Shown here: positions 18,454 to 30,535 of the stretch, piece by piece
How the letters are laid out: each line of letters opens with the position of its first letter
How positions within the stretch are numbered: the stretch's first letter is position 1
Assembly: GCA_023381695.1 (NCBI GenBank)
Contig: JAMCQP010000067.1
Coordinates: 1 to 46,028, forward strand
Reading direction: 5' to 3'
Source of the DNA: Bacillota bacterium
GTDB taxonomy: Bacteria; Bacillota; UBA5301; JAMCQP01
DNA length: 46,028 nucleotides
The notes under the pieces: generated by a model
The model's input: the letters and a program-made list of their open reading frames with translations, nothing else
The model's database searches: none
What the model was told of the DNA's origin: nothing
Translations under genes and position numbers: made by a program

Positions 18454-19533
18454 TTATGCCGAATTCTGATTGGGCACGCCCCTGGCGTCAAACATTTTGC
18501 GCCGGAAATTGAGCGCCACGTTCACCAGGCTGATCATCACCGGCACCTCGATCAGCGGTCCGATCACCGCCGCAAAGGCCTGCCCGGAATTAATCCCGAA
18601 CACCGCCACGGCCACGGCGATCGCCAGTTCAAAGTTGTTGCTGGCCGCCGTAAAGGAAAGAGTGGTGGTTTGCTCATAATTGATCCCCGCCCGCGCGCTC
18701 AAGAAGAACGACACCAGGAACATGACCACAAAATAGACGATCAACGGGATGGCAATCCGGACCACGTCCAGGGGAAGCCTGACGATATAGTTGCCTTTGA
18801 GCGAAAACATGACCACGATGGTAAACAGCAGGGCGATCAAAGCCAGCGGACTAATCCTGGGCACAAAGTTCCTCTCATACCATTCCTTGCCCATGGCCGG
18901 CACCAGGAGATACCTGGTCAAAAACCCGGCCACAAACGGGATGCCCAGGTAGATGGCCACGCTGGTCGCCACCTCCCCGATGGACACGTGGACCCGCATT
19001 CCCTTCAGGCCCAGCCAGGCGGGAAGCAGCGTGATAAAGATATAAGCGTACAGTGAGTAGCAGATGACCTGGAAGATGGAGTTCAACGCCACCAGCGCCG
19101 CGGCGTACTCGCTGTCGCCTTTGGCCAGGCTGTTCCAGACGATGACCATGGCGATGCAACGGGCCAGGCCGATCAAGATTAGACCAGCCATGTATTCCGG
19201 GTAATTCCGTAAAAAGATGATCGCCAGCAGGAACATCAGAACCGGCCCGATAATCCAGTTCTGGATCAGGGACAGGGTCACCACCTTGCGGTTTTTGAAG
19301 ACCTTGCCCAACTCCTCGTACTTAACTTTGGCCAAAGGCGGGTACATCATGACAATCAGGCCGACGGCGATTGGGATCGAGGTGGTGCCAACAGACAATC
19401 TGTTCAGCAGGTTCGCCACGCCGGGAAATACGTAACCAAGTCCAACACCGAAAATCATGGCCAAAAAGATCCACAGGGTCAAGAAACGGTCAAGCAGTGG
19501 CAGTCTTGCATTCGTGCTGTGTTCCACGGACAT
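18454..19533 (-). CDS. acr3: Arsenite efflux permease ACR3
   Basis: A 359-residue membrane exporter of arsenite with about ten helices. Family marks are [16 protein letters not shown] at the start, [15 protein letters not shown] with the essential Cys of helix 4, and [24 protein letters not shown] 19533 follows AGGAGGGA. It is the last gene of the arsD-arsA-arsR-thioredoxin-like-acr3 operon, 49 nt after the thioredoxin-like gene. With ArsA present, the efflux is probably ATP-driven. ACR3 rather than ArsB is common in Bacillota. Confidence 0.97.
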
Positions 19534-19582
19534 TCCCTCCTATAATTGATATATTTTAATTTTTATATATATCGCGAATTTC

Positions 19583-19933
19583 TCAACCAACATCTTTCAA
19601 TAACTGCTCCACCGCTCCAGCAATCATCCGCCGGGAAATACCCCCGTGAAAGCGGGGCTGCCCGTTGATCGCCACCAGGGGCAGGCGCACCTTGCCCTCT
19701 TGCAGGAGAGCGCCAATCTCCGGAAAGCCGCTCATTTCCTGGCTGAAGACATCCACAAACTTTGTCCTCAACCCGGGGCCTGATTTCTCCTGCAACACTT
19801 TTTCCAGATCGGCGGCTTCATCTTTAAGGCTTTTAGCTGGTCCGCAGCAGGCGGAATTAGAACCGGAGCCGCAACCACAACCTCCGGCTGGAGCATTCAC
19901 GCCAAATATTGTAACCTCAATCTCCCTTGTCAC
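19583..19933 (-). CDS. Cys-rich thioredoxin-fold protein of the ars operon
   Basis: About 116 residues from GTG 19933 (GAGGAG 10 nt upstream): strand EIEVTIFGVNAP, then a Cys cluster (GGCGCGSG and NSACCGPAKSL, five Cys), a helix, strand FVDVFS, FPEIGALLQEG and LPLVAINGQPRFHGGIS. The layout is thioredoxin-like and resembles YuzD-type disulfide proteins with an enlarged N-terminal Cys loop. A role as an arsenite/thiol metallochaperone or reductase fits its place between arsR and acr3 but is inference. Its start lies just inside or next to the arsR end. Confidence 0.7.
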   Translation of the reverse strand: MTREIEVTIFGVNAPAGGCGCGSGSNSACCGPAKSLKDEAADLEKVLQEKSGPGLRTKFVDVFSQEMSGFPEIGALLQEGKVRLPLVAINGQPRFHGGISRRMIAGAVEQLLKDVG

Positions 19934-19953
19934 CTCATTCACGCTCCTCAAAA

Positions 19954-20355
19954 TCAATTGTGATCAACTTTACCTTCCGCGGAATCACTTTTGCAGCGCG
20001 GGTGGCGCCGTGGCCGGCCCCAGGCAGTGGCTTGACGGCGGCGGACCGGCAGGATGACAGTGCTCTCCAGGAGTTCACCCACCGCTTCCAGGGCTTCTGG
20101 ATCAATACGGTAATAGATCCATTTGCCCTGCCGCCTATCCGTTACCAACCCCGCCTGACGCAAAAGTTTCAGGTGGTGGGAAACAGCCGGCTGGGAAAGA
20201 GGCAGAGCCTCCATGATCTCGCAGACGCACATCTCACCGTCCTGCAGCATGGTCAGGACCGTAAGCCGCGTCTCATCGGCCAAGGCTTTCAAGATTTCGG
20301 CCAGGCTCCGTAGCGTAGTGTCTTTTTTGGGCGCCGCCTGTTCTATAGTCTTCAG
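19954..20355 (-). CDS. arsR: ArsR/SmtB-family repressor (arsenic operon)
   Basis: A winged-helix repressor. LADETRLTVLTMLQDGEMCVCEIMEALPLSQ has the E-x-C-V-C metalloid-binding Cys pair in the alpha-3 region. SQPAVSHHLKLLRQAGLV is the recognition helix, and GKWIYYRI the wing. The C-terminal tail (GRPRRHPRCKSD) is basic with one more Cys. The start is unclear: between the upstream stop and LKALADE there is no ATG or GTG. CTG 20355, behind GGGGGTG, gives a normal N terminus; TTG 20292 would cut it. It sits third in the operon, so it would control its own promoter at 22545-22572. Confidence 0.88.
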   Translation of the reverse strand: MKTIEQAAPKKDTTLRSLAEILKALADETRLTVLTMLQDGEMCVCEIMEALPLSQPAVSHHLKLLRQAGLVTDRRQGKWIYYRIDPEALEAVGELLESTVILPVRRRQATAWGRPRRHPRCKSDSAEGKVDHN

Positions 20356-20427
20356 CCTTCACACCCCCTTTCCAAACGCATCCCACTGTTCTTCTCTTCC
20401 CCAATTCTCTGGCACGACGGCAGGAGC

Positions 20428-22194
20428 TTAAAATAGCTGCACCAAACCTTCCCGGCCTTTGGGCACTTTTATTTGCCAGGGAATACGGACTGCCCTTTTG
20501 GCCAGGGTTTTGACCACTTTGTCCAGCCACGGCCCCTCCGCCCAGGATAAACTCCCGAGGACCGGGTCGGCCGTTGGGACCCCCGTCCAGGTCTGGTTTA
20601 CCACCCACCAGGCTGGCTCGATGCCGGCCCGACGCAGGTCCTCTTGCAAACGGGCCGCCTCCAGGACTGGCGTGGCCTGGGCCAGGGTCACCACCAGCAC
20701 ATGGGTCAGCTCCGGGTCACGCAGGCGTGGCAGGAGCCGCCGCACTTCTTCCGGCACCTCGCCGGTGCTGCGTTCCACCTCCCGGTGGTAGGACTGCGTG
20801 GCATCCAGGAGAAGCAAGGTATGCCCCGTCGGGGCCGTATCCAGCACCACGAAACCCTCTTCCACCCGGTCGACAGTTCGCGCAAAGGCCCGGAAGACCG
20901 CAATCTCCTCCGTGCAGGGCGAAGCCAGATCCTCGGCCAGAAGCGCGCGACCGTCCGCATCCAGTCCCGCGCCCACCGTGCCCATCACCTCCTCGCGGTA
21001 AGCCGCAACCTCGGCCACCGGATCGATGTGACTGACGGAAAACCCGTCTCCAACCTCCACTCCCGCGCCAGCCAGAGCCAGGTCCAGGTGGGCCGCCGGG
21101 TCGGTGGTGGACAGGTGCACCCGGTGTCCCCGTTCCGCCAGGGCCAAGGCTAAGGCAGTCGCGATGGTGGTCTTGCCCACCCCACCTTTGCCCATGACGA
21201 GCACCACGCCCCGTTTCCGACGGTCCAGGTCGGCCACTACCGGCTCCAGGCCCAATGGAACATTCTTTGCGACAGAGTCTTCCCGATAAACGATACTTTT
21301 TCCGGTTTCTCCCGCTCCGGGGCGCCGCATCCGCTCCACCAGAAGACGCAAGTTAGCAATACCCACCGGGGGCACGGACAGAAGCGGAACCACATGGCGC
21401 GGTAAGTTCTTCAGATCGGCGGGTATCTGGGACAAAGCTTCTGCCTGTTGCTGCTTGAAGATCGCGGCCACCCGATCCCCTTCATCGGTTTCCAGCACCC
21501 CGTTGACCACCAGTTGCTGGTTAGTTAAGCCAAGTTCGCCCAACTCGCGGCTGGCACGCGCCGCCTCAGCCAGCGCAGGGGGTTCGGGTTTTGCCACCAG
21601 GATCAGGGTGGTAAGGGTGGCATTGGCCAGGGCGGACACGGTGTCTTCATATCGTTTCCGGTGTTCCGAAAGGCCCGCCAGGGGACCAATGCAGGAGGCG
21701 CCATGCGTGCTGGCGCTCAAGAACCCCGACCAGGCTTTGGGCAGGGCTAACAGGCGCAGGGTATGGCCCGTTGGCGCTGTATCAAAAATGATCTGATCAT
21801 AGCCGGCCATCTGGGCAGAATCACCCAGCAGGCGAGTAAAAAGATCAAAAGTCGCGATCTCCATCGTGCAAGCGCCGGAGAGCTGCTCCTCTATTGATGC
21901 AATCACCGCCTCCGGCATAAGCCCCCGGTAAGAGCCCACCACCTGCTCGCGATAAGCCCTGGCCGCCTCCTCCGGGTCAAGGTTCAGGGCCCACAAACCC
22001 GTAACGTCAGCCATCTCCGTGGGCTGCTGGTCCACCCTGGTTTCGAAAACATCATCCAAATTGGAAGCGGGATCGGTACTGACCAACAGAACCTTTTTGC
22101 CAGCGTCGGCCAGGTTCATGGCTGTGGCGCAAGCCACCGAAGTCTTGCCTACCCCACCCTTGCCGGTAAAAAACAGGTAACGTGTGGCGTTCAT
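20428..22194 (-). CDS. arsA: Arsenite-stimulated ATPase ArsA (two-domain)
   Basis: 588 residues with tandem GTPase-like ATPase halves. P-loops are GKGGVGKTS (about 11-19) and GKGGVGKTT (about 334-342); DTAPTGHTLRLL and DTAPTGHTLLLL are the signal-transduction boxes. The metalloid-binding Cys residues are present: SGACTMEIA, GASCIGPLAGL and, in the second half, ASPCTEEIA. It energises arsenite extrusion by the permease. Its ATG overlaps the arsD stop (ATGA), so the two are coupled; ArsD hands arsenite to ArsA. The length matches the duplicated form. Confidence 0.97.
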   Translation of the reverse strand: MNATRYLFFTGKGGVGKTSVACATAMNLADAGKKVLLVSTDPASNLDDVFETRVDQQPTEMADVTGLWALNLDPEEAARAYREQVVGSYRGLMPEAVIASIEEQLSGACTMEIATFDLFTRLLGDSAQMAGYDQIIFDTAPTGHTLRLLALPKAWSGFLSASTHGASCIGPLAGLSEHRKRYEDTVSALANATLTTLILVAKPEPPALAEAARASRELGELGLTNQQLVVNGVLETDEGDRVAAIFKQQQAEALSQIPADLKNLPRHVVPLLSVPPVGIANLRLLVERMRRPGAGETGKSIVYREDSVAKNVPLGLEPVVADLDRRKRGVVLVMGKGGVGKTTIATALALALAERGHRVHLSTTDPAAHLDLALAGAGVEVGDGFSVSHIDPVAEVAAYREEVMGTVGAGLDADGRALLAEDLASPCTEEIAVFRAFARTVDRVEEGFVVLDTAPTGHTLLLLDATQSYHREVERSTGEVPEEVRRLLPRLRDPELTHVLVVTLAQATPVLEAARLQEDLRRAGIEPAWWVVNQTWTGVPTADPVLGSLSWAEGPWLDKVVKTLAKRAVRIPWQIKVPKGREGLVQLF

Positions 22195-22514
22195 TTGTGA
22201 GCTACCCTCTCAACTTCCACCAGCCAGGCTTCAAACTCCGCCGTGGTGGGATAACGCCCCACAACCCGCACCTTACCGTCCGCCACAACTATCGGGAGGA
22301 TATTCGGCCCCTTTTCGGTGAGCAGTTTTCGCACCTCGTCCTGCCGCATGAAGGCCCCCGGCTGCTGGGAAAGGTTGTAACGCTTTACCTCCACCTTGCT
22401 TTGGATCAGGCGTTGAAGATCCGTTGCCACCCGCGCCAGTTCCTGGCTGGGACTTGGTCCACAGACCCCGGTACTGCAGCACATGGCCGGGTCATATATG
22501 GCGACGCTTTTCAT
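22191..22514 (-). CDS. arsD: Arsenic metallochaperone ArsD
   Basis: 107 residues of thioredoxin fold. The arsenite-binding Cys12-Cys13-Cys18 triad is visible in DPAMCCSTGVCGPSP, followed by the family's conserved NILPIVVADGKV strand. It transfers As(III) from thiols to ArsA and has weak repressor activity in some operons. First gene of the operon: an AGGGGG ribosome site precedes ATG 22514 and a promoter/operator lies at 22545-22572. There is no C-terminal Cys pair, as in short ArsD versions. Confidence 0.97.
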   Translation of the reverse strand: MKSVAIYDPAMCCSTGVCGPSPSQELARVATDLQRLIQSKVEVKRYNLSQQPGAFMRQDEVRKLLTEKGPNILPIVVADGKVRVVGRYPTTAEFEAWLVEVERVAHK

Positions 22515-23593: not shown

Positions 23594-23881
23594 CTATTCT
23601 TCCCGGTAATCAAGCGAGAGGGTATTCCACCACAGCGCCTTGTCAAGACTGATCTCCGCCGTTCCCGAAAATGAGGCCACCTCTTTGTCCAGGTGAACGT
23701 TAACCCCAGCTACATTCAGTGGTTGATAATTTTCCGGACCGCGCCGGGGCTTCCCCAATTCCATGGCGGGATGGGCGACATTCCCGCCGCAACACCCGCT
23801 CAGACTGCCTCGATAGATTACGACATGGCCACCCTTTTTCCTGATGTATTCCGCCGCCTGTTCCGAAATGGTAATCTGCAT
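23594..23881 (-). CDS. CC/Se-motif family protein (Cys form)
   Basis: 95 residues: MQITISEQAAEYIRKKGG, VVIYRGSLSGCCGGNVAHP and a C-terminal block (VNVHLDKEVAS, ISLDKALWWNTLSLDY). The G-C-C-G-G core matches a small HesB-like family in which the second Cys of the pair is selenocysteine in many members; here both are Cys. Function is unknown, and a redox or metalloid-binding role is usually assumed. AGGAGGAA precedes ATG 23881, and arsC follows. An AT-rich, partly symmetrical ATAAACATTCGCTTAT (about 23952-23968) upstream may be an ArsR-type site. Confidence 0.8.
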   Translation of the reverse strand: MQITISEQAAEYIRKKGGHVVIYRGSLSGCCGGNVAHPAMELGKPRRGPENYQPLNVAGVNVHLDKEVASFSGTAEISLDKALWWNTLSLDYREE

Positions 23882-23992
23882 GGAACTTCCTCCTGTTCAC
23901 AAAACATAACGCAAATAAATCTCCATTCGCTCAGCGCAAGGCGCTTAACAAATAAACATTCGCTTATATTATAATTGCATTAGTGCTCTGCG

Positions 23993-24319
23993 TCAAGGCA
24001 GGCGAAAGCCGTACTTCTCCAAAATCCGCCGGCCCTTTGGACCTTTGACGAAATCGACAAACGCTTTTGATAGCTGGACCTGTTTCGTACTGCCGATAAT
24101 AGCCATGGTCTGCCTGGGGGCGGCGTAGAGCTTTCCACCACCCAAATCCGGAACGGTTCTTTTATTTTTGCCAACAAAGGCACATTGCAAGGCATTGAGC
24201 ACATCGCGGGCGTAGATAAACTTGGGCTCCAATCGCTCCCAGAGGCCACAGGCCACTTTGGAGCAATACTTGCCGGGCCGCCAGCCATACGGCGCATGGC
24301 TGGGATTGGCAATAGCCAC
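23993..24319 (-). pseudogene. Molybdate-binding ModA-like C-terminal fragment
   Basis: The frame reads VAIANPSHAPYG, GLWERLEPKFIYARDV, RQTMAIIGSTKQVQLSKAF and VDFVKGPKGRRILEKYGFRLP, which is the C-terminal third of ModA/WtpA-type molybdate-binding proteins. A stop lies directly upstream of the first codon, the signal peptide and N-terminal lobe are absent, and the middle (NALQCAFVGKNKRTVPDLGGG) has lost the usual strand order. It is therefore a remnant. No modB or modC is nearby. Confidence 0.8.
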
Positions 24320-24348
24320 TCATGATAAACCTTCCTTTGGCGGCTACG

Positions 24349-24489
24349 TTACTTCACACCGAACCCCGCTCTCTTTATAGCTTGTTTTATGGCATCCACG
24401 TTGGCCTTGCCGTCGTCATAAGTAACTATGGCCTTCCCATCAAGGTTGACGTCTGAATCGATATGGTTACGGCTACAGGCCCTGGTTCT
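24349..24489 (-). pseudogene. MerP/HMA metal-binding domain fragment
   Basis: The frame gives ACSRNHIDSDVNLDGKAIVT, then YDDGKANVDAIKQAIKRAGF and GVK before a TAA. This is the second half of an HMA (MerP/CopZ) ferredoxin-like domain; DGKAIVTYDDGKANVDAI is typical. The N-terminal strand with G-M-x-C-x-x-C is missing except possibly its last Cys, and there is no start codon. It overlaps the end of the MerT-like gene in another frame, suggesting a deletion that fused a merT-merP pair. Confidence 0.7.
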
Positions 24490-24778
24490 TTATTGTATAG
24501 GCGAGAATTGCCACCGTCAGGATTGTGGCGGCCCAGAGGATGGTCTGGCTCGTCCACGACGTCCCTTTACGAGCCTTCTTATAAACGAGATAGTGGGAGA
24601 TCGCCAACAAGACGACCGTCAGCGCCATGAAGACGCGGCGGTAGGGTGTAAGTGCTGAAACCATGGAAAGCCCGACGCCGCTCAGACCGAGCGACAGAAA
24701 CACTACTGGGCCCAGTCAGCAGATACCTGCCAGAAAGGCGGTGAAGATAGAACCAAGGCTCGCCAACTTCTCCTTCAA
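24473..24778 (-). CDS. MerT-like metal transporter, probable selenoprotein (UGA = Sec21)
   Basis: TTG 24778 (AGGAGG 7 nt upstream) begins MKEKLASLGSIFTAFLAGIC; the next codon is TGA (24716-24718), after which the frame continues LGPVVFLSLGLSGVG for 80 more codons to TAG. MerT-type proteins read G-S-x-x-x-A-x-L-A-x-x-C-C-x-G-P-V in this place, so the TGA replaces the second Cys of the metal-binding pair. A hairpin with GGUCU loop follows (see SECIS entry). Three hydrophobic helices fit MerT; the second Cys pair of classic MerT is absent. CsoR ends 28 nt upstream, so it is in the copZ-csoR operon. If Sec is not inserted, only a 20-residue stub is made. A simple nonsense mutation is the alternative. 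Confidence 0.72.
24677..24718 (-). promoter_or_regulatory. Putative bacterial SECIS element
   Basis: Starting at the UGA (24718-24716), 27 nt precede a hairpin: GUCGCUC (24695-24689), apical loop GGUCU (24688-24684), GAGCGGC (24683-24677). This is seven pairs including one U-G. A short loop opening with G, 16-37 nt past the UGA, is the bacterial SECIS rule, and GGUCU is the apical sequence of the E. coli fdhF element. Confidence 0.65.
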
Positions 24779-24806
24779 AGACGCCACCTCCTCAGATTGT
24801 CAGATT

Positions 24807-25082
24807 CTATTTTAAAAGCCGATCCAGGGCTCGAGCAAGTTTGGCCAGGGCTTTTTCTCCCTCGCCCTTATTGACACAGTCCATAACACAAGTTCGCAAA
24901 TGATCATCCAGCACGATGCGCCCCACCTGCCCGAGGCCGGCCCGCAACGAAGCCACTTGTATAAGAATGCTCTCGCAGTCCGTCTGCTCCTCGATCATTT
25001 TCTTAACTCCCCGGACCTGCCCTTCAATACGGTTCAACCGGGTGATTATATCCTTCTGAACGTCTTCGTCGAGGTATGTCAT
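24807..25082 (-). CDS. CsoR-family metal-sensing repressor
   Basis: 91 residues of the all-helical CsoR/RcnR/FrmR family, with RLNRIEGQVRGVKKMI at the DNA-binding end. The Cys-His-Cys set of copper-type CsoR is visible as DCESIL, DDHLRTC (His then Cys). ATG 25082, behind GGAGGAGGG, overlaps the stop of the CopZ-like gene; a longer in-frame upstream extension is out-of-frame-like sequence of that gene and is rejected. It probably controls its own operon (CopZ-like, CsoR, MerT-like) in response to Cu(I) or another soft metal or persulfide. Confidence 0.9.
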   Translation of the reverse strand: MTYLDEDVQKDIITRLNRIEGQVRGVKKMIEEQTDCESILIQVASLRAGLGQVGRIVLDDHLRTCVMDCVNKGEGEKALAKLARALDRLLK

Positions 25083-25687
25083 AAGTAGCCCTCCTCCGAA
25101 GGCATCTTTTCCGCCTTCTGGATGACAGCCTTGATGACGGGGTGGCAGCACCGGCCGGACGGGTTCCGGGTGAGACATTTCCCGCCCTTGCCTGCGCCTG
25201 TCCGCTTTTGGATCTCTTCCAGCGCAGGCGGGCACCCGTTTTTAAGGATTTCATCCAGGATCTCCTTCTCAGTCACTTCGTTGCAGTAACACACCGGAAT
25301 CGGATCCTCAGTCTCCTTCAACCACACCCTGACCTTGACGTCGTGTTTATCAAAGCGTCTGCCACTGATGCTGTCAAAATAGACCACCGGGCAATCTGGA
25401 GTTCGGCAGAAGAAGAAGTCCTGATCCCCGACGTTCTCAATCAAGTTGTCAAGGACCATGCTTCGAACCGTAATGTTTTTTACCTTCTGGCCTTCGACTC
25501 CGCAATTTGGACAGCCAGTACCGCCTGGTTTCTCGTTGTTTCCTGTGGCTCCCGACCCGCAGCAATCCAGGCCGGGCTCGATTCCCTTTTCCACCGTGGA
25601 CACCTTCCTTATTTGAATAGTCGACAATTGCATCTCTCCAGGGTCGGGTTCTGCCTGACGGATAAATTGTTGTGAGGCATTTGACAT
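25079..25687 (-). CDS. CopZ-like Fe-S/zinc metallochaperone with BFD-like domain
   Basis: 202 residues. An N-terminal Cys-rich stretch (LDCCGSG) precedes the Archaeoglobus CopZ-type domain: CPNCGVEGQKVKNITVRSMV, FFFCRTPDCPVVYF and VRVWLKETEDPIPVCYC. That domain binds zinc and a [2Fe-2S] cluster. A BFD-like [2Fe-2S] region follows, with CCHPVI near the C terminus. The usual HMA domain of CopZ is not fused here. It may load or reduce Cu(I) or another metal for the transporter downstream. ATG 25687 is the likely start, although its ribosome site is G-rich and poorly placed. It is divergent from the ArsR gene at 25839. Confidence 0.8.
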   Translation of the reverse strand: MSNASQQFIRQAEPDPGEMQLSTIQIRKVSTVEKGIEPGLDCCGSGATGNNEKPGGTGCPNCGVEGQKVKNITVRSMVLDNLIENVGDQDFFFCRTPDCPVVYFDSISGRRFDKHDVKVRVWLKETEDPIPVCYCNEVTEKEILDEILKNGCPPALEEIQKRTGAGKGGKCLTRNPSGRCCHPVIKAVIQKAEKMPSEEGYL

Positions 25688-25765
25688 TGTACCATGCCCC
25701 CCCACCCCATATATAACTGTAGCAGATAATTGTAATTGGGTCAATAGGCTTACTCTAAAAAACCA

Positions 25766-25796
25766 TTGACACAATCAAGAACTCCTGTTATATAAT
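25766..25796 (+). promoter_or_regulatory. Promoter of the ArsR-led efflux operon
   Basis: TTGACA (25766-25771), 17 nt, TATATA (25789-25794), or TATAAT at 25791-25796 with 19 nt. AT-rich alternating sequence (TATATAATATATATAAG) over the -10 could serve as an ArsR-type operator. Confidence 0.6.
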
Positions 25797-25838
25797 ATAT
25801 ATAAGTAGATTGCAATACGTTTATACGAGGTGTTCAAA

Positions 25839-26225
25839 TTGCTTTCGCAAATGGTCAGGATCCACAAGGCCCTTTCGGAGCCAAACCGGCTGAAACTTTT
25901 GAAATTGCTGCTGGAGCATGAGCTTTGCGTATGCGAAATGGTCGAGGTTTTAAACATCAGCCAGCCTCTGGTCTCCCAACACCTGAAAATTCTTAAGACC
26001 GCCGGGCTGGTCACCGAACGCCGGGATGGCAAGTGGGTCTACTACCGGACCGACGAAACGGGGCTAAACAAGTTTATGGACACGTGGCGCCTCCTTCTCC
26101 GGCAGGACCTCGGAGAAGTATCCGAGATGAATCAGGAGTTTGAACGCTGGCAGGCGCTGGGCAGCAACATGCGGGTGCAAACCTGCAAGGCGCCGGCAAT
26201 CAAACCAAATCAAACGGAGGGATGA
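25839..26225 (+). CDS. ArsR/SmtB-family repressor
   Basis: About 128 residues. HKALSEPNRLKLLKLLLEHE, then ELCVCEMVEV with the alpha-3 Cys pair, SQPLVSQHLKILKTAGLV as recognition helix and GKWVYYRTD wing. The C terminus adds a Cys (VQTCKAPA). TTG 25839 is preferred (GAGGTG 6 nt upstream); ATG 25851 and GTG 25830 are alternatives. It opens the operon thioredoxin-like, permease, CDF transporter, and is divergent from the CopZ-like gene, so a shared regulatory region is likely. It probably responds to a metalloid. Confidence 0.9.
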   Translation: MLSQMVRIHKALSEPNRLKLLKLLLEHELCVCEMVEVLNISQPLVSQHLKILKTAGLVTERRDGKWVYYRTDETGLNKFMDTWRLLLRQDLGEVSEMNQEFERWQALGSNMRVQTCKAPAIKPNQTEG

Positions 26226-26228
26226 ATC

Positions 26229-26483
26229 ATGGAAATCAAAATCCTGGGCAGTGGGTGCTCTAACTGCGTTAAACTTGAGGAAATGACCCGAAGAGTGTTG
26301 TCCGAGCTTGGCGTCCCGGCCACCATCACCAAAGTCACCGACATCAAGGAGATCATGTCCTACGGGGTGATGTCCACGCCGGCCCTGGTCATCGGCAACG
26401 AGGTCAAGGTTTACGGAATGGTGCCACCCAAGGCCAGGCTGACCGAAATCATCACCACGGAACTGGTGAAAAGCGAGGAATAA
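26229..26483 (+). CDS. Small thioredoxin (redox-active disulfide protein 2 type)
   Basis: 84 residues: MEIKILGSGCSNCVKLEEM gives the CXXC active site (C-S-N-C) at residues 10-13, and GVMSTPALVIGNEVKVYG the cis-Pro loop. The TM0996/MTH895 family of mini-thioredoxins often sits next to ArsP-type permeases, as here. It could reduce metal- or arsenic-linked thiols. GGAGGGATGAATC before the ATG and only 3 nt after the ArsR stop show coupling. Confidence 0.93.
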   Translation: MEIKILGSGCSNCVKLEEMTRRVLSELGVPATITKVTDIKEIMSYGVMSTPALVIGNEVKVYGMVPPKARLTEIITTELVKSEE

Positions 26484-26485
26484 CC

Positions 26486-27433
26486 ATGCTACAGGCATTC
26501 GCAAACTGGATTACCTACCAGGCCCTCCATCTCGCCAGGGGTACAAGGCTGGCGGATGCGGTAAATTTCTTTGTCTACGACACCATCAAGATCCTGCTGC
26601 TTCTGGCCGTAATCATCTTTCTGGTGTCGATTATCCGGAGCTTCTTTTCGCCGGAACGCACCCGGAAACTGTTGAGCCATAAGAAGCAATTTGCCGGGAA
26701 TATCATCGCCGCGCTTCTGGGGATCGTCACCCCCTTCTGTTCCTGCTCGGCGGTTCCCCTCTTTATCGGCTTCGTGGAGTCCGGGGTGCCGCTGGGAGTC
26801 ACCTTCTCTTTCCTGATCTCTTCGCCGATGGTTAATGAGGTGGCGCTCATCATGCTGTGGGGGCTCTTCGGATGGAAGGTGGCTCTCCTGTATATCGGCG
26901 CCGGCCTCACGGTGGCCATCATCGGAGGACTGGTTATCGGGCGGCTTAAGTTGGAAAAAGAGGTCGAGGAGTACGTCTTTCAGGTCAAGATGCAGGAGGC
27001 GGCCATCGCCGAATTGAACTGGAAAGACCGGTACGAATACGCCTACCAGTATATGAAGGACCTCCTCAAAAAGGTTTGGCCCTATGTGGTGGTCGGTATT
27101 GGCGTAGGAGCTTTTATCCACGGGTACGCCCCGCAGGATTTCCTGGCCAGGTACGCCGGGCGCTCCAATCCTCTGGCGGTCCCCCTGGCGGTCCTGATTG
27201 GCGTTCCCCTCTACTCCAATGCTGCCGGGACGATCCCCATCGTCCACGCCCTGATGGAGAAGGGAATGGCCATCGGCACCGTCCTGGCATTTATGATGGC
27301 CGTGACCGCTTTGTCGCTGCCGGAGATGATCATCCTGCGGCGCGTGTTGAAACCCAAATTGATCGCGATTTTCGTGGGGATCCTGGCGGTCTCGATCACC
27401 GCCGTGGGGTACCTGTTTAATGCGGTGCTATAA
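26486..27433 (+). CDS. ArsP/DUF318-family permease
   Basis: A 315-residue membrane protein with about eight helices. GIVTPFCSCSAVPLFIGFVESGVP carries the conserved T-P-F-C-S-C-S motif, and VLIGVPLYSNAAGTIPIVHALMEKGM is the second-half repeat. A loop of about 45 residues between halves (KLEKEVEEYVFQVKMQEA) is cytosolic. The family includes the organoarsenical exporter ArsP and permeases for other metal(loid)s. It begins 2 nt after the thioredoxin-like gene, which overlaps its ribosome site (GAGGAATAACC). The substrate is unknown. Confidence 0.9.
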   Translation: MLQAFANWITYQALHLARGTRLADAVNFFVYDTIKILLLLAVIIFLVSIIRSFFSPERTRKLLSHKKQFAGNIIAALLGIVTPFCSCSAVPLFIGFVESGVPLGVTFSFLISSPMVNEVALIMLWGLFGWKVALLYIGAGLTVAIIGGLVIGRLKLEKEVEEYVFQVKMQEAAIAELNWKDRYEYAYQYMKDLLKKVWPYVVVGIGVGAFIHGYAPQDFLARYAGRSNPLAVPLAVLIGVPLYSNAAGTIPIVHALMEKGMAIGTVLAFMMAVTALSLPEMIILRRVLKPKLIAIFVGILAVSITAVGYLFNAVL

Positions 27434-27459
27434 ATGCGCCGGCACAGAAGGTGATAATT

Positions 27460-28455
27460 ATGCATGGTCACGATCACAACCACAACCAGGATCGCCTTTC
27501 GCGGATGGGCTTTTCCATCTGGTTCACCCTTGCGGTATTCGTCGCCGAAGTTGTCGGCGGCCTGCTGACCAACAGCCTGGCTCTCCTGAGCGACGCCTGG
27601 CACGTGCTGGCCGATGTGCTGGCGCTCGGGCTGAGCTGGTGGGCACTGAGAAAGGCGCAAAAGTCGGCCACGGGGGATATGACTTATGGGTACCACCGCT
27701 ACGGGGTGCTGGCGGCACTGGCGAACAGCGTCTCCTTGCTGGCGATTTCCCTGTGGATCTTCTATGAATCCTATAGCCGTCTTCTGCATCCCGAACCGGT
27801 CAAAAGCGTCCCCATGCTCATCGTCGCGGCCATCGGGCTTGTGGCGAATGTCATAGTCGCTCTGGCGCTGAAAGATTCCGCCCATGGCAACCTGAACGTG
27901 CGCAGCGCTTTCCTGCATGTCATCGGCGATGCTTCCGCGTCAATGGGGGTTATTCTGGCGGCGGCGATCATGAGCTACACCTCATGGTACTTTGTTGACC
28001 CGATCATCAGCGCCGGCATCGGTCTTCTAATCTTGAAGGGGGCCTGGGATATTCTGCGCTCCGCGCTGGGTATCCTGGCGGAACGCTCTCCGCGGGGGAT
28101 TGACGCACATTCGATCTCCGAGGCCGTGCGGTCCCTCCCCTTCGTCACCGATGTCCATGATGTCCATGTGTGGAGCCTTTCCAACGAGTTGCCCATGCTG
28201 AGCTTGCATGTCATCGCCTGTCCGGAGAGCCCCGGCAATTCCAGGATGTTGAATGCCATCAACGAGCTTCTGCATGAGAAGTTTGCCATAGTTCACTCAG
28301 TAATTCAACTGGAGGACGAGTGCTGTGGGTGCCACGGCGTATTGTGCAGGCTGGATGCAGATAAGCAACGCCTGCACCATGCGCCCGGTGAAAAGTGCCC
28401 AAAACAAGCCGGGGCGTCCGCACAGTCTGCAACCCCGGCGTTATCCGGCAACTAA
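27460..28455 (+). CDS. CDF-family cation diffusion facilitator (CzcD-like)
   Basis: 331 residues, six helices. It begins with a His-rich loop (MHGHDHNHNQD). Transport-site motifs are visible: SLALLSDAWHVLADVLAL (helix 2 D..HxxxD) and HVIGDASASMGVILAA (helix 5 HxxxD). A cytosolic ferredoxin-like domain follows, then a Cys/His-rich tail (DECCGCHGVLC) that could bind metal. It exports Zn/Co/Cd-type cations by proton exchange. ATG 27460 has AAGGTG 6 nt upstream. It is the fourth gene of the ArsR-led operon. Confidence 0.93.
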   Translation: MHGHDHNHNQDRLSRMGFSIWFTLAVFVAEVVGGLLTNSLALLSDAWHVLADVLALGLSWWALRKAQKSATGDMTYGYHRYGVLAALANSVSLLAISLWIFYESYSRLLHPEPVKSVPMLIVAAIGLVANVIVALALKDSAHGNLNVRSAFLHVIGDASASMGVILAAAIMSYTSWYFVDPIISAGIGLLILKGAWDILRSALGILAERSPRGIDAHSISEAVRSLPFVTDVHDVHVWSLSNELPMLSLHVIACPESPGNSRMLNAINELLHEKFAIVHSVIQLEDECCGCHGVLCRLDADKQRLHHAPGEKCPKQAGASAQSATPALSGN

Positions 28456-28573
28456 AATAAGTGTGGAGGCGATTTTGATGGCCGTCGAAAAAGACAAGAA
28501 GTGATCTTCTCCCGTAATTCTGTATAAAATTAAGCCTAAGCATTGAGATTACAAGATGTTAGGAGGAACAAGG

Positions 28574-29347
28574 ATGCCTTCCCTCGAGAACGCGGCGGTG
28601 CTGCCTCTGTTGCTTGTGCCTGTTATAGTGGGCTTTGTGACCACCTCAATCAAATCGTATATTGACCGCATTTTTTTGGTGCTGCTGGCCCTGTTTTTTC
28701 TCAAGTTCGGGGCGGCCCAGGCCATCCTGGTCAACCTGGTGGTGATGTTCCTGGCCAGCCTCTTCTTCTACGCCCGCAACGAATCCGCGCTGCGCAAATT
28801 GCCGCGCCAGGCCGCCTGGTGGGTAATCGCCGCCGCCCTGTTGGGAGCGGCGCTGGGCCGGTGGATAGCCCTGCAGTTGCCGGTCCGGGTGTTTTTGATT
28901 GTGTTGGGCTTGTACGCCATCCTGGTTGGCTTGCGATTGGGGCTGGTAAAGATTAAACCGCCCGCCCGGCCGGCTGAGGCGAAGCCTTCCGTCGCCTGGC
29001 TGTCGGGGATCTTCGCGGTGCTGACCGGGCTGATCAGTGCCGGCGGCAAGCCCTTCCAGGTGCCATTACTGGTCATGGGCGTGAAACTGGCCCCGCCCCC
29101 GGCCTACCTTTTGGCCTCCCTGGGGACCTTCATGGCCAGCCTTGGCGCCCTGGGCGCGCAGCTATTGCTGGCTCCAGGCGCCTTAAACGGTTCCATCTTT
29201 TTGTGGGCGGTCTACTTTTACGTGGCCATCACGGCGGTGGCCCTGATCGTCGAGCGGTTTTGGACACCGAAGCTGCAACAGGTGGTCACCTACCTCATCG
29301 CTCCCTTGCTGGTGCTGGCGGGGATCAGGTTGTTGATGATGCGGTAG
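28574..29347 (+). CDS. TSUP (TauE/SafE) family permease
   Basis: 257 residues with eight hydrophobic helices in two halves. The first half has VIVGFVTTSIKSYIDRIFLV; the second repeats the pattern with LTGLISAGGKPFQVPLLVMG. TSUP proteins move sulfite, sulfonates or other small sulfur anions. ATG 28574 is chosen over 28556 because AGGAGG lies 7 nt upstream. It is followed by a thioredoxin-like gene and a CcdA-like gene, so a sulfur or thiol-redox role is likely. The gap before it (28456-28573) holds only an eight-codon ORF. Confidence 0.88.
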   Translation: MPSLENAAVLPLLLVPVIVGFVTTSIKSYIDRIFLVLLALFFLKFGAAQAILVNLVVMFLASLFFYARNESALRKLPRQAAWWVIAAALLGAALGRWIALQLPVRVFLIVLGLYAILVGLRLGLVKIKPPARPAEAKPSVAWLSGIFAVLTGLISAGGKPFQVPLLVMGVKLAPPPAYLLASLGTFMASLGALGAQLLLAPGALNGSIFLWAVYFYVAITAVALIVERFWTPKLQQVVTYLIAPLLVLAGIRLLMMR

Positions 29348-29398
29348 GATCTTCGGGCCGTGTCAAAGACGTCATGCAGATGTTTGGAGGCCACGCTG

Positions 29399-29818
29399 AT
29401 GCCTGGTAAAGATTCTTTGCAAAAGAAAGCGCGCCCCATGATCCTCATTGTTATTGCGGTCTTACTGGCGCTAACCGGCTATTACCTGCAGAACCGTCAG
29501 GAGACCGCCCTCAAGATCTCCCCCGCGGATGCCATTCCGGCGGGTATCCCCAAATTGATCGATCTCGGACGAGATTCCTGTACGGCTTGCAAAGCCATGC
29601 GCCCGATTCTGGAGGAATTGCAAAAAGAATATGCGGGCAGGGTGGGCGTGGCCATCATCAACATTGATGATTTCCCCGAGGAAGCAGAGAAGTACGGGAT
29701 TTACCTCATCCCGACCCAGATCTTCTTTGACGCCGCCGGAAAGATCGTTTACCGTCACGAGGGCTTCATGCCCAAGGAAGAAATAGAAGTTGTTTTCAGG
29801 AACATGGGTATAAAATAG
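29399..29818 (+). CDS. Membrane-anchored thioredoxin-like protein
   Basis: 139 residues. One N-terminal anchor (PMILIVIAVLLALTGYYL), then a thioredoxin domain with active site DSCTACKAMRP (C-T-A-C), strand VAIINIDDFPEEAEKYG and the cis-Pro loop YLIPTQIFFD. It faces outward, and its partner is the CcdA-like protein encoded 15 nt downstream, which would keep it reduced. ATG 29399 follows GGAGG by 8 nt. Substrates may be exported thiol or metal-binding proteins, such as apo-cytochromes. Confidence 0.92.
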   Translation: MPGKDSLQKKARPMILIVIAVLLALTGYYLQNRQETALKISPADAIPAGIPKLIDLGRDSCTACKAMRPILEELQKEYAGRVGVAIINIDDFPEEAEKYGIYLIPTQIFFDAAGKIVYRHEGFMPKEEIEVVFRNMGIK

Positions 29819-29833
29819 AGAGGGTGATCACCG

Positions 29834-30535
29834 GTGGAAAGCCTACTCCAGAATTTCGGACAAATCATGGCCAGCAGTCCTTTGCTGGCCGTCTTTTTCG
29901 CCTTGCTGGGAGGGCTCGTCTCCGCCTTCAGCCCCTGTGTGTTAACCTCCCTGCCGCTGATCATCGGCTACATCGCGGGGCCGTCGGATAACCGGCCCCC
30001 GCGGGCTCTTTCCATCGCTGTCGTGTTTTCTCTGGGGCTGGCCCTCACCCTGACCTTCCTTGGAACATTGGCGGCCTTGATGGGCAGGATGTTGAACGGG
30101 CTTTCCAATATCTGGTCCGCTTTCCTGGGAGTATTTTTGATCCTCATGGGCCTCTGGCTGACCGGGTTAATCTCCTTCGATCACGCCAACCCCGCTTTTC
30201 GCTTCCCCACCATCAAAAAAAATCTCTGGGGAGCCTTTTCCTTGGGGATTCTTTCGGGGATAGCTTCCTCTCCCTGTGCCACCCCGGTTTTAGCCGCGAT
30301 TTTGGGTTTCGTGGCCCAAAGAGGGAATATCTGGTACGGCGGGGCGCTGCTTCTTATCTACTCTCTGGCCCACTGTACATTAATCATCCTGGCCGGCATC
30401 TCAACCGGCTTCCTTCAAAACCTGGCCAACAACTCCAGGATGATGATCTGGGGAAAGGTTCTGCGTTTTACCCTGGGAGGCGTGGTCATCCTGAGCGGCT
30501 TTTACTTTATATATGCTTCTTCCTGCCTCTGGTAG
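29834..30535 (+). CDS. CcdA/DsbD-type thiol-disulfide transporter
   Basis: 233 residues, six helices. The two reactive Cys are in SAFSPCVLTSLPLIIGY (helix 1) and SGIASSPCATPVLAAIL (helix 4), the internal repeat of CcdA. It carries electrons from cytosolic thioredoxin across the membrane to the anchored thioredoxin encoded just upstream. The GTG start follows AGAGGG. The last 34 nt overlap, tail to tail, the convergent permease gene at 30502-31053. Confidence 0.92.
   Translation: MESLLQNFGQIMASSPLLAVFFALLGGLVSAFSPCVLTSLPLIIGYIAGPSDNRPPRALSIAVVFSLGLALTLTFLGTLAALMGRMLNGLSNIWSAFLGVFLILMGLWLTGLISFDHANPAFRFPTIKKNLWGAFSLGILSGIASSPCATPVLAAILGFVAQRGNIWYGGALLLIYSLAHCTLIILAGISTGFLQNLANNSRMMIWGKVLRFTLGGVVILSGFYFIYASSCLW

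Follow-up and report, generated by a model that had tools for sequence, protein, structure and literature searches.

Classical MerT has three transmembrane helices and a second, cytoplasmic cysteine pair, Cys76/Cys82, which the Pfam MerT model (PF02411) does not require. The listing of a MerT selenoprotein in reviews probably goes back to work from 2007. In the available sections of PMC2398784 (2008), a putative mercuric transport protein is listed with two selenoproteins and one Cys homologue, with no Pfam family given there, and MerP is listed as a selenoprotein with two selenoproteins and no Cys homologues. The retrievable text of PMC9312934 and PMC13188914 identifies the mercuric transport selenoprotein with pfam02411 and ABB16073.1; PMC13188914, a review of 2026, gives its motif as C/SxxU, and PMC9312934 ascribes a redox role to the majority of known selenoproteins in prokaryotes, as the prevailing view.

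The window, which is the whole stretch of 46,028 nucleotides that was analysed, carries a gene of this kind on its minus strand, a further member of the already predicted MerT selenoprotein family. The sequence-only reading of this DNA knew of no characterised case; MerT selenoproteins were already listed as predicted, and the gene is thus not the first case. With the listed mercuric transport selenoprotein it shares the MerT family and a predicted selenocysteine (Sec), whereas its motif is CU instead of C/SxxU and a MerP remnant lies behind it. With the classical MerT of Tn501/Tn21 (PF02411, NF010314) it shares the first-helix pair at profile positions 24-25 and, as a weak point resting on a low-confidence model, the character of a helical membrane protein, but it has Sec for the second Cys and is without the second Cys pair. 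NF045683, a MerT/CopZ fusion-like heavy metal transport selenoprotein, is likewise of the MerT type; the window MerT aligns with its first part, and its last part is matched by the MerP-like protein of a related locus, L078. NF045683 is, however, a fusion of 235 positions with a cut-off of 375, while the window MerT is a single domain scoring 38.5 bits, below that cut-off. The MerP selenoprotein, in the available sections of PMC2398784, is an HMA protein with Sec, and such genes follow Sec-MerT in four of the loci described below, whereas the remnant in the window is without the end that would bear Sec.

The probable Sec-MerT gene of the window and its surroundings

The features of the locus are as follows.

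24473..24778, minus strand: Sec-MerT gene of 101 residues, starting with TTG and ending with TAG, its in-frame TGA being taken as selenocysteine
24716..24718, minus strand: TGA codon (Sec21), falling on NCBIfam MerT profile position 25
24719..24721, minus strand: TGC codon, Cys20, the partner of Sec21 (CU type)
24676..24696, minus strand: SECIS-like hairpin of 7-8 pairs; its GGUCU loop occupies 24684-24688 and lies 27 nt past the TGA
24787..24793, minus strand: ribosome-binding site GAGGAGG, ending 8 nt before the TTG start
24349..24459, minus strand: MerP remnant; last 36 residues of a heavy-metal-associated domain and stop, metal-binding end missing
24807..25082, minus strand: CsoR-family metal-sensing repressor, directly upstream of MerT
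25079..25774, minus strand: CopZ-like zinc and 2Fe-2S binding metallochaperone, with no in-frame TGA (Cys form)

Translation of the minus strand gave 20 residues, the TGA, 80 residues, and a TAG. With the TGA taken as a residue, the protein matched PF02411 with 47.3 bits (2.5e-12), above the cut-off of 32.9, and the NCBIfam MerT model NF010314 with 44.7 bits (1.3e-11), below the cut-off of 150. The NF010314 alignment placed residues 9-73 on profile positions 13-77, and since the offset is equal at both ends, Cys20 and the TGA fall on positions 24 and 25, which we take to be Cys24-Cys25 of classical MerT. The sequence-only reading had proposed a frame from TTG 24778 with 20 codons, a TGA on the second Cys of the MerT pair, and 80 further codons of MerT; the translation, the PF02411 match, and the placing of residues 20-21 on positions 24-25 all agreed with this. 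The vicinal Cys pair of the first helix of MerT is therefore present as Cys20-Sec21, with a selenol for one thiol. The second Cys pair is absent from the window MerT, which has no Cys besides Cys20, and no Cys other than the Sec partner occurs in 28 of the 30 Sec-MerT rows compared below. A model of a 20-row family alignment, in which the window protein is itself one row, scored it with 124.8 bits. The AlphaFold model consisted of three long helices and one short helix at low confidence (pLDDT 60.8), too weak for placing Sec relative to partners. No sequence-related solved structure of the window MerT was found, and an Rfam scan of positions 24000-25500 gave no match above the curated threshold.

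The MerP remnant lies 22 nt downstream of the matched MerT stretch and matched a model of four Sec-MerP-like proteins with 3.1e-08. This MerT copy thus adjoins a truncated MerP, and its operon either has decayed, with loss of the metal-binding portion of MerP, or was misassembled. The C, H, and C of the CsoR-family repressor aligned to those of the solved InrS and CsoR, its best matches, and by this comparison the regulator resembles copper and nickel sensors rather than MerR. A search for MerB in the same genome found none, but it gave no match in any control either. Further along the minus strand, close to Sec-MerT, a CC/Se motif family (seleno)protein gene without TGA (23594-23881; NF041239, 68 bits) was seen. 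Between it and the MerP remnant lies a 110-residue open frame (23980-24312, minus strand), which has no Pfam or NCBIfam match and looks by eye like the end of a substrate-binding protein. The window also holds arsenic-type genes for an SBF transporter, ArsA, and ArsD (18454-22514, minus strand), and on its plus strand (25830-30535) genes for ArsR, an ArsE-like thioredoxin, an ArsP permease, cation efflux, TauE, a thioredoxin, and a DsbD-like protein.

Conservation of the TGA and of the downstream hairpin

Across 199 genomes, the window's own included, PF02411 matched 19 places in 15 genomes, each with exactly one in-frame TGA. A family profile built from 20 TGA-bearing MerT proteins, which, unlike the Pfam model, may favour TGA-bearing matches, gave 35 matches, spread over 28 of the 398 genomes of the phylum that were searched (the window's own among them), and 31 of these matches have one TGA; the further stop listed for two of these, L027 and L028, is the gene's own end. 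Among the four matches without TGA, L101, L102, and L103 have Cys-Cys there and L104 does not reach the column; the stretch of L101 is listed with a TAA. The alternation of Cys and Sec at this column, which had been proposed as a check, was thus observed (31 TGA against three Cys-Cys among the 35), with Sec far commoner. The TGA forms one invariant column of the 20-row alignment, and in each of the 30 rows of a larger set it is the 20th or 21st residue of the match; this larger set together with L033 and L039 (both in the 20-row alignment) makes up all 31 TGA matches plus L041. The record of L041 is titled Desulfovibrio sp. DeMMO6_25, yet the phylum search from its genome gave the places that the search in the window's phylum had given, so that title and classification disagree. 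This second search, from genome G398, differed in its matches only by having G398 in place of the window's genome, and is not independent of the first.

Folding of the stretch after the TGA in the window gave a hairpin of 8 pairs (-11.8 kcal/mol) with its GGUCU loop 27 nt on, in line with the seven-pair hairpin at this distance reported from the letters alone. We compared it with the bSECIS rule as given in the available text of PMC13188914, namely a loop of 3-9 nt, a stem of 4-16 bp, a G within the first two positions of the loop, a distance of 16-37 nt from the UGA, and an MFE of -7.5 or lower. The hairpin passes this rule, with stem length left uncounted by the script. However, 7% of 500 synonymous-codon shuffles of the window folded at least as well and 27% passed the rule, so that by itself the hairpin is unexceptional and weak evidence. 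The earlier claim that it fits bacterial SECIS rules stands.

The evidence beyond chance comes from the family, that is, from the single TGA in 19 of 19 PF02411 matches and from the hairpin across relatives, and on these grounds the view that the TGA is no chance nonsense mutation was borne out. The rule was passed by 27 of the 30 Sec-MerT rows (L076, L085, and L098 failed), and the apical loop began 25-28 nt after the TGA in 30 of 30; in 14 of the 30, at most 5% of a row's own synonymous shuffles reached its hairpin energy. Over 18 distinct rows, cells with changes at both partners of a pair numbered 17, where shuffles gave 7.8, and covariation scored 0.356 against 0.220, values reached in 0 of 500 shuffles each, with the caveat that relatedness among rows can raise such values above the shuffles even where no structure exists. 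Two of the five covariation measures were at the shuffle level: pairs with both partners changed came to 3 (shuffles 2.8) and further pair types to 12 (shuffles 11.7). Of the cells in the hairpin alignment of these rows, 21.4% were unpaired. Columns 30/36, mostly third positions of two Leu codons, pair as CG, GC, AU, GU, and UA, with four rows unpaired. We read the pattern of the hairpin in the family as selection on RNA.

Spacing of the predicted cysteine-selenocysteine pair and neighbouring genes

The partner Cys of Sec in 29 distinct rows was at i-1 (CU) in 16 and at i-3 (CxxU) in 13, with both in none and neither in none. The adjacent Cys-UGA pair described for the window thus occurs in 16 of the 29 rows, the window among them, but not in all. 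The 16 CU rows together with L074, whose protein is identical to that of L073, make up 17 CU loci; the CxxU loci are L076, L077, L079, L081-L083, L085, L086, L090, L093, and L098-L100. L077, presumably the locus of ABB16073.1, has CxxU and a rhodanese-domain neighbour. A same-strand gene for a rhodanese-domain protein lies downstream in all 13 CxxU loci, its match beginning 20-204 nt after the MerT match; these proteins have a Cys in the active loop, and that of L076 was confirmed as PF00581. By eye, several of them look like lipoproteins. None of the 17 CU loci had a downstream rhodanese gene within the stretches examined (at least 4.6 kb; 0.6 kb for L073 and 3.0 kb for L041), and 12 CU loci had no same-strand MerP-like match; rhodanese was sought with one sequence and MerP-like proteins with a four-protein model, so distant ones may be missed. 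The CU loci L080 and L094 each have a rhodanese gene that starts ahead of the MerT end, by 4.6 and 5.3 kb, respectively.

An intact Sec MerP-like gene follows MerT in four of the 17 CU loci, with the motif UxxC in L075, L078, and L084 and UxxxC in L096; the window, with its remnant, is the other locus with a MerP-like match. A hairpin follows the TGA in three of these four genes, the stretch folded for L096 stopping short of it. L078 (622-1996) has three TGA genes in a run, namely MerT (GICU), a MerP-like lipoprotein (TUESC), and a MerB-like gene (CTUPQ). The last matched PF03243 with 98.7 bits and has its TGA where MerB2 has the Cys of its TCKQIH stretch; the hairpin of this gene, at -6.2 kcal/mol, is weak and does not reach the -7.5 of the rule. 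The MerB-like gene resembles SaoL (NF040728), the MerB-like organometallic lyase selenoprotein, which is a MerB relative with motif CU in the available text of PMC13188914, in that its frame also has a TGA; it scored higher with MerB PRK13239 (110.1 bits) than with SaoL (65.5), reaching the NCBIfam cut-off of neither, and its motif is CTU. Upstream of MerT in L074, with the same frame in L073, lies a MerR gene (169.9 bits; NCBIfam cut-off 150.85), which shares its three Cys, by alignment, with the mercuric operon regulator of solved structure 5crl. These MerP, MerB, and MerR contexts favour mercury for the CU kind, in the small number of loci where they occur.

The spacing and the downstream rhodanese gene coincide in 29 of 29 distinct rows. 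On a tree made free of the motif, both change four times; when the motif is included in the tree, two changes of the label are counted. The window protein groups most closely with CxxU proteins (L082, 54% identity), though this placing is not strongly supported. Because supported branches hold just two independent CU/CxxU pairs, against four on the best tree (p 0.5), the link between spacing and rhodanese neighbour is suggestive only. We put forward tentatively that Sec-MerT comprises two transport systems on one fold, with partner Cys and partner protein switching together. Cys-Sec would go with Sec-MerP, in L078 also with Sec-MerB, for mercury or a soft metal, and Cys-x-x-Sec with a rhodanese-domain protein, its cargo maybe sulfane sulfur or selenium; the window would be one switch, CU with CxxU nearest relatives. 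For the CxxU loci, handling of sulfane sulfur or selenium rather than mercury is possible. A literature search, with subscription journals mostly outside its coverage, found neither the pairing with rhodanese nor the division into CU and CxxU described in any paper, and this two-partner pattern is the part that we did not find in print.

Probable decoding of the UGA and proposed function of the pair

The genome of the window encodes SelB (377.5 bits). The gene ahead of it is truncated at the end of the contig, and the 196 residues left of it correspond to the C-terminal part of SelA. This fragment covers the last 171-184 positions of the SelA profiles and scored 211 bits with TIGR00474, below the whole-protein cut-off, and 197.1 bits with PF03841, above the cut-off. 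A tRNA-Sec (selC) with anticodon UCA is present. selD (TIGR00476) was not found in this genome, a MAG of 89.56% completeness whose selA runs off a contig end, the best of seven matches reaching 102.2 bits against a cut-off of 125. The two best of the seven were rejected as selD, scoring higher as HypE-like and as ThiL, which are AIR-synthase kin. The presence of selA, selB, selC, and selD, suggested earlier as a check, was thus confirmed for selB, selC, and the end of selA and not for selD. A second Sec-like TGA of the genome lies in a Tat-type formate dehydrogenase-N frame (ARVUHSSTV; C37; L145:226-3285), at what we take to be the Sec place of E. coli FdnG; this frame also has a TAG, later on. 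SelB, tRNA-Sec, the SelA end, and the formate dehydrogenase-N TGA support the reading of Sec insertion.

Were the TGA a plain nonsense mutation and the mer locus in decay, the protein would no longer be made. The truncated MerP next door, the selD that was not found, and the TAG in the formate dehydrogenase frame speak for such decay, but relatives have the TGA at the same column and the hairpin in the same place, and apart from the TGA the frame in the window is open and has a good ribosome site, so that we regard this as very unlikely. Decoding of the UGA as some other residue, e.g., tryptophan, or low-level read-through without Sec is hardly credible: the analysis found no point in its support, three TGA-less homologues have Cys at that place, SelB and tRNA-Sec are present, and the hairpin recurs across relatives.

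A selenoprotein with a substrate other than mercury, i.e., copper or another soft metal, differs from the reading that we prefer in the metal only. The CsoR-type repressor upstream with InrS and CsoR as best matches, the CopZ-like neighbour and, weakly in view of the unmatched controls, the missing MerB point to it, whereas CU relatives with MerR (L073, L074) or a MerB-like gene (L078) point to mercury, as does the MerP-like remnant downstream, although such domains also serve copper. We consider a non-mercury substrate a serious possibility, if somewhat on the doubtful side.

The reading that we prefer is that the gene very probably encodes a whole MerT-type inner-membrane protein with a Cys20-Sec21 pair, its UGA decoded as Sec, for soft-metal transport. 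What the analysis shows is a conserved recoding signature, the greater part of the Sec machinery and, for some relatives, neighbours of the mer type; Sec insertion itself, transport, and the metal are what we infer for the window MerT. In this small protein, the first-helix metal pair would be Cys20-Sec21, the UGA at 24718-24716 being decoded by SelB and tRNA-Sec with the help of the hairpin just downstream. The thiol-selenol pair would most likely take a soft metal ion from a periplasmic MerP-type carrier and pass it inward, the ion being presumably Hg(II) in the best-marked relatives. With its MerP partner truncated, this MerT copy may work alone under the CsoR-type regulator or be on its way out. 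We count against this preferred reading that selD was not found, that MerP is truncated, that a MerP-like neighbour occurs in only four of 17 CU loci, that the regulator is closer to copper and nickel sensors than to MerR, and that the hairpin of the window is unexceptional when taken by itself.

Since the MerT matches in the genomes of the phylum searched are mostly TGA-bearing, such genes may be cut off at the TGA and misannotated. Sec in this tiny membrane protein is most likely a metal or chalcogen ligand, as opposed to the redox role of most prokaryotic selenoproteins, and the split into CU and CxxU with two different neighbours offers a direct handle on what the pair binds.
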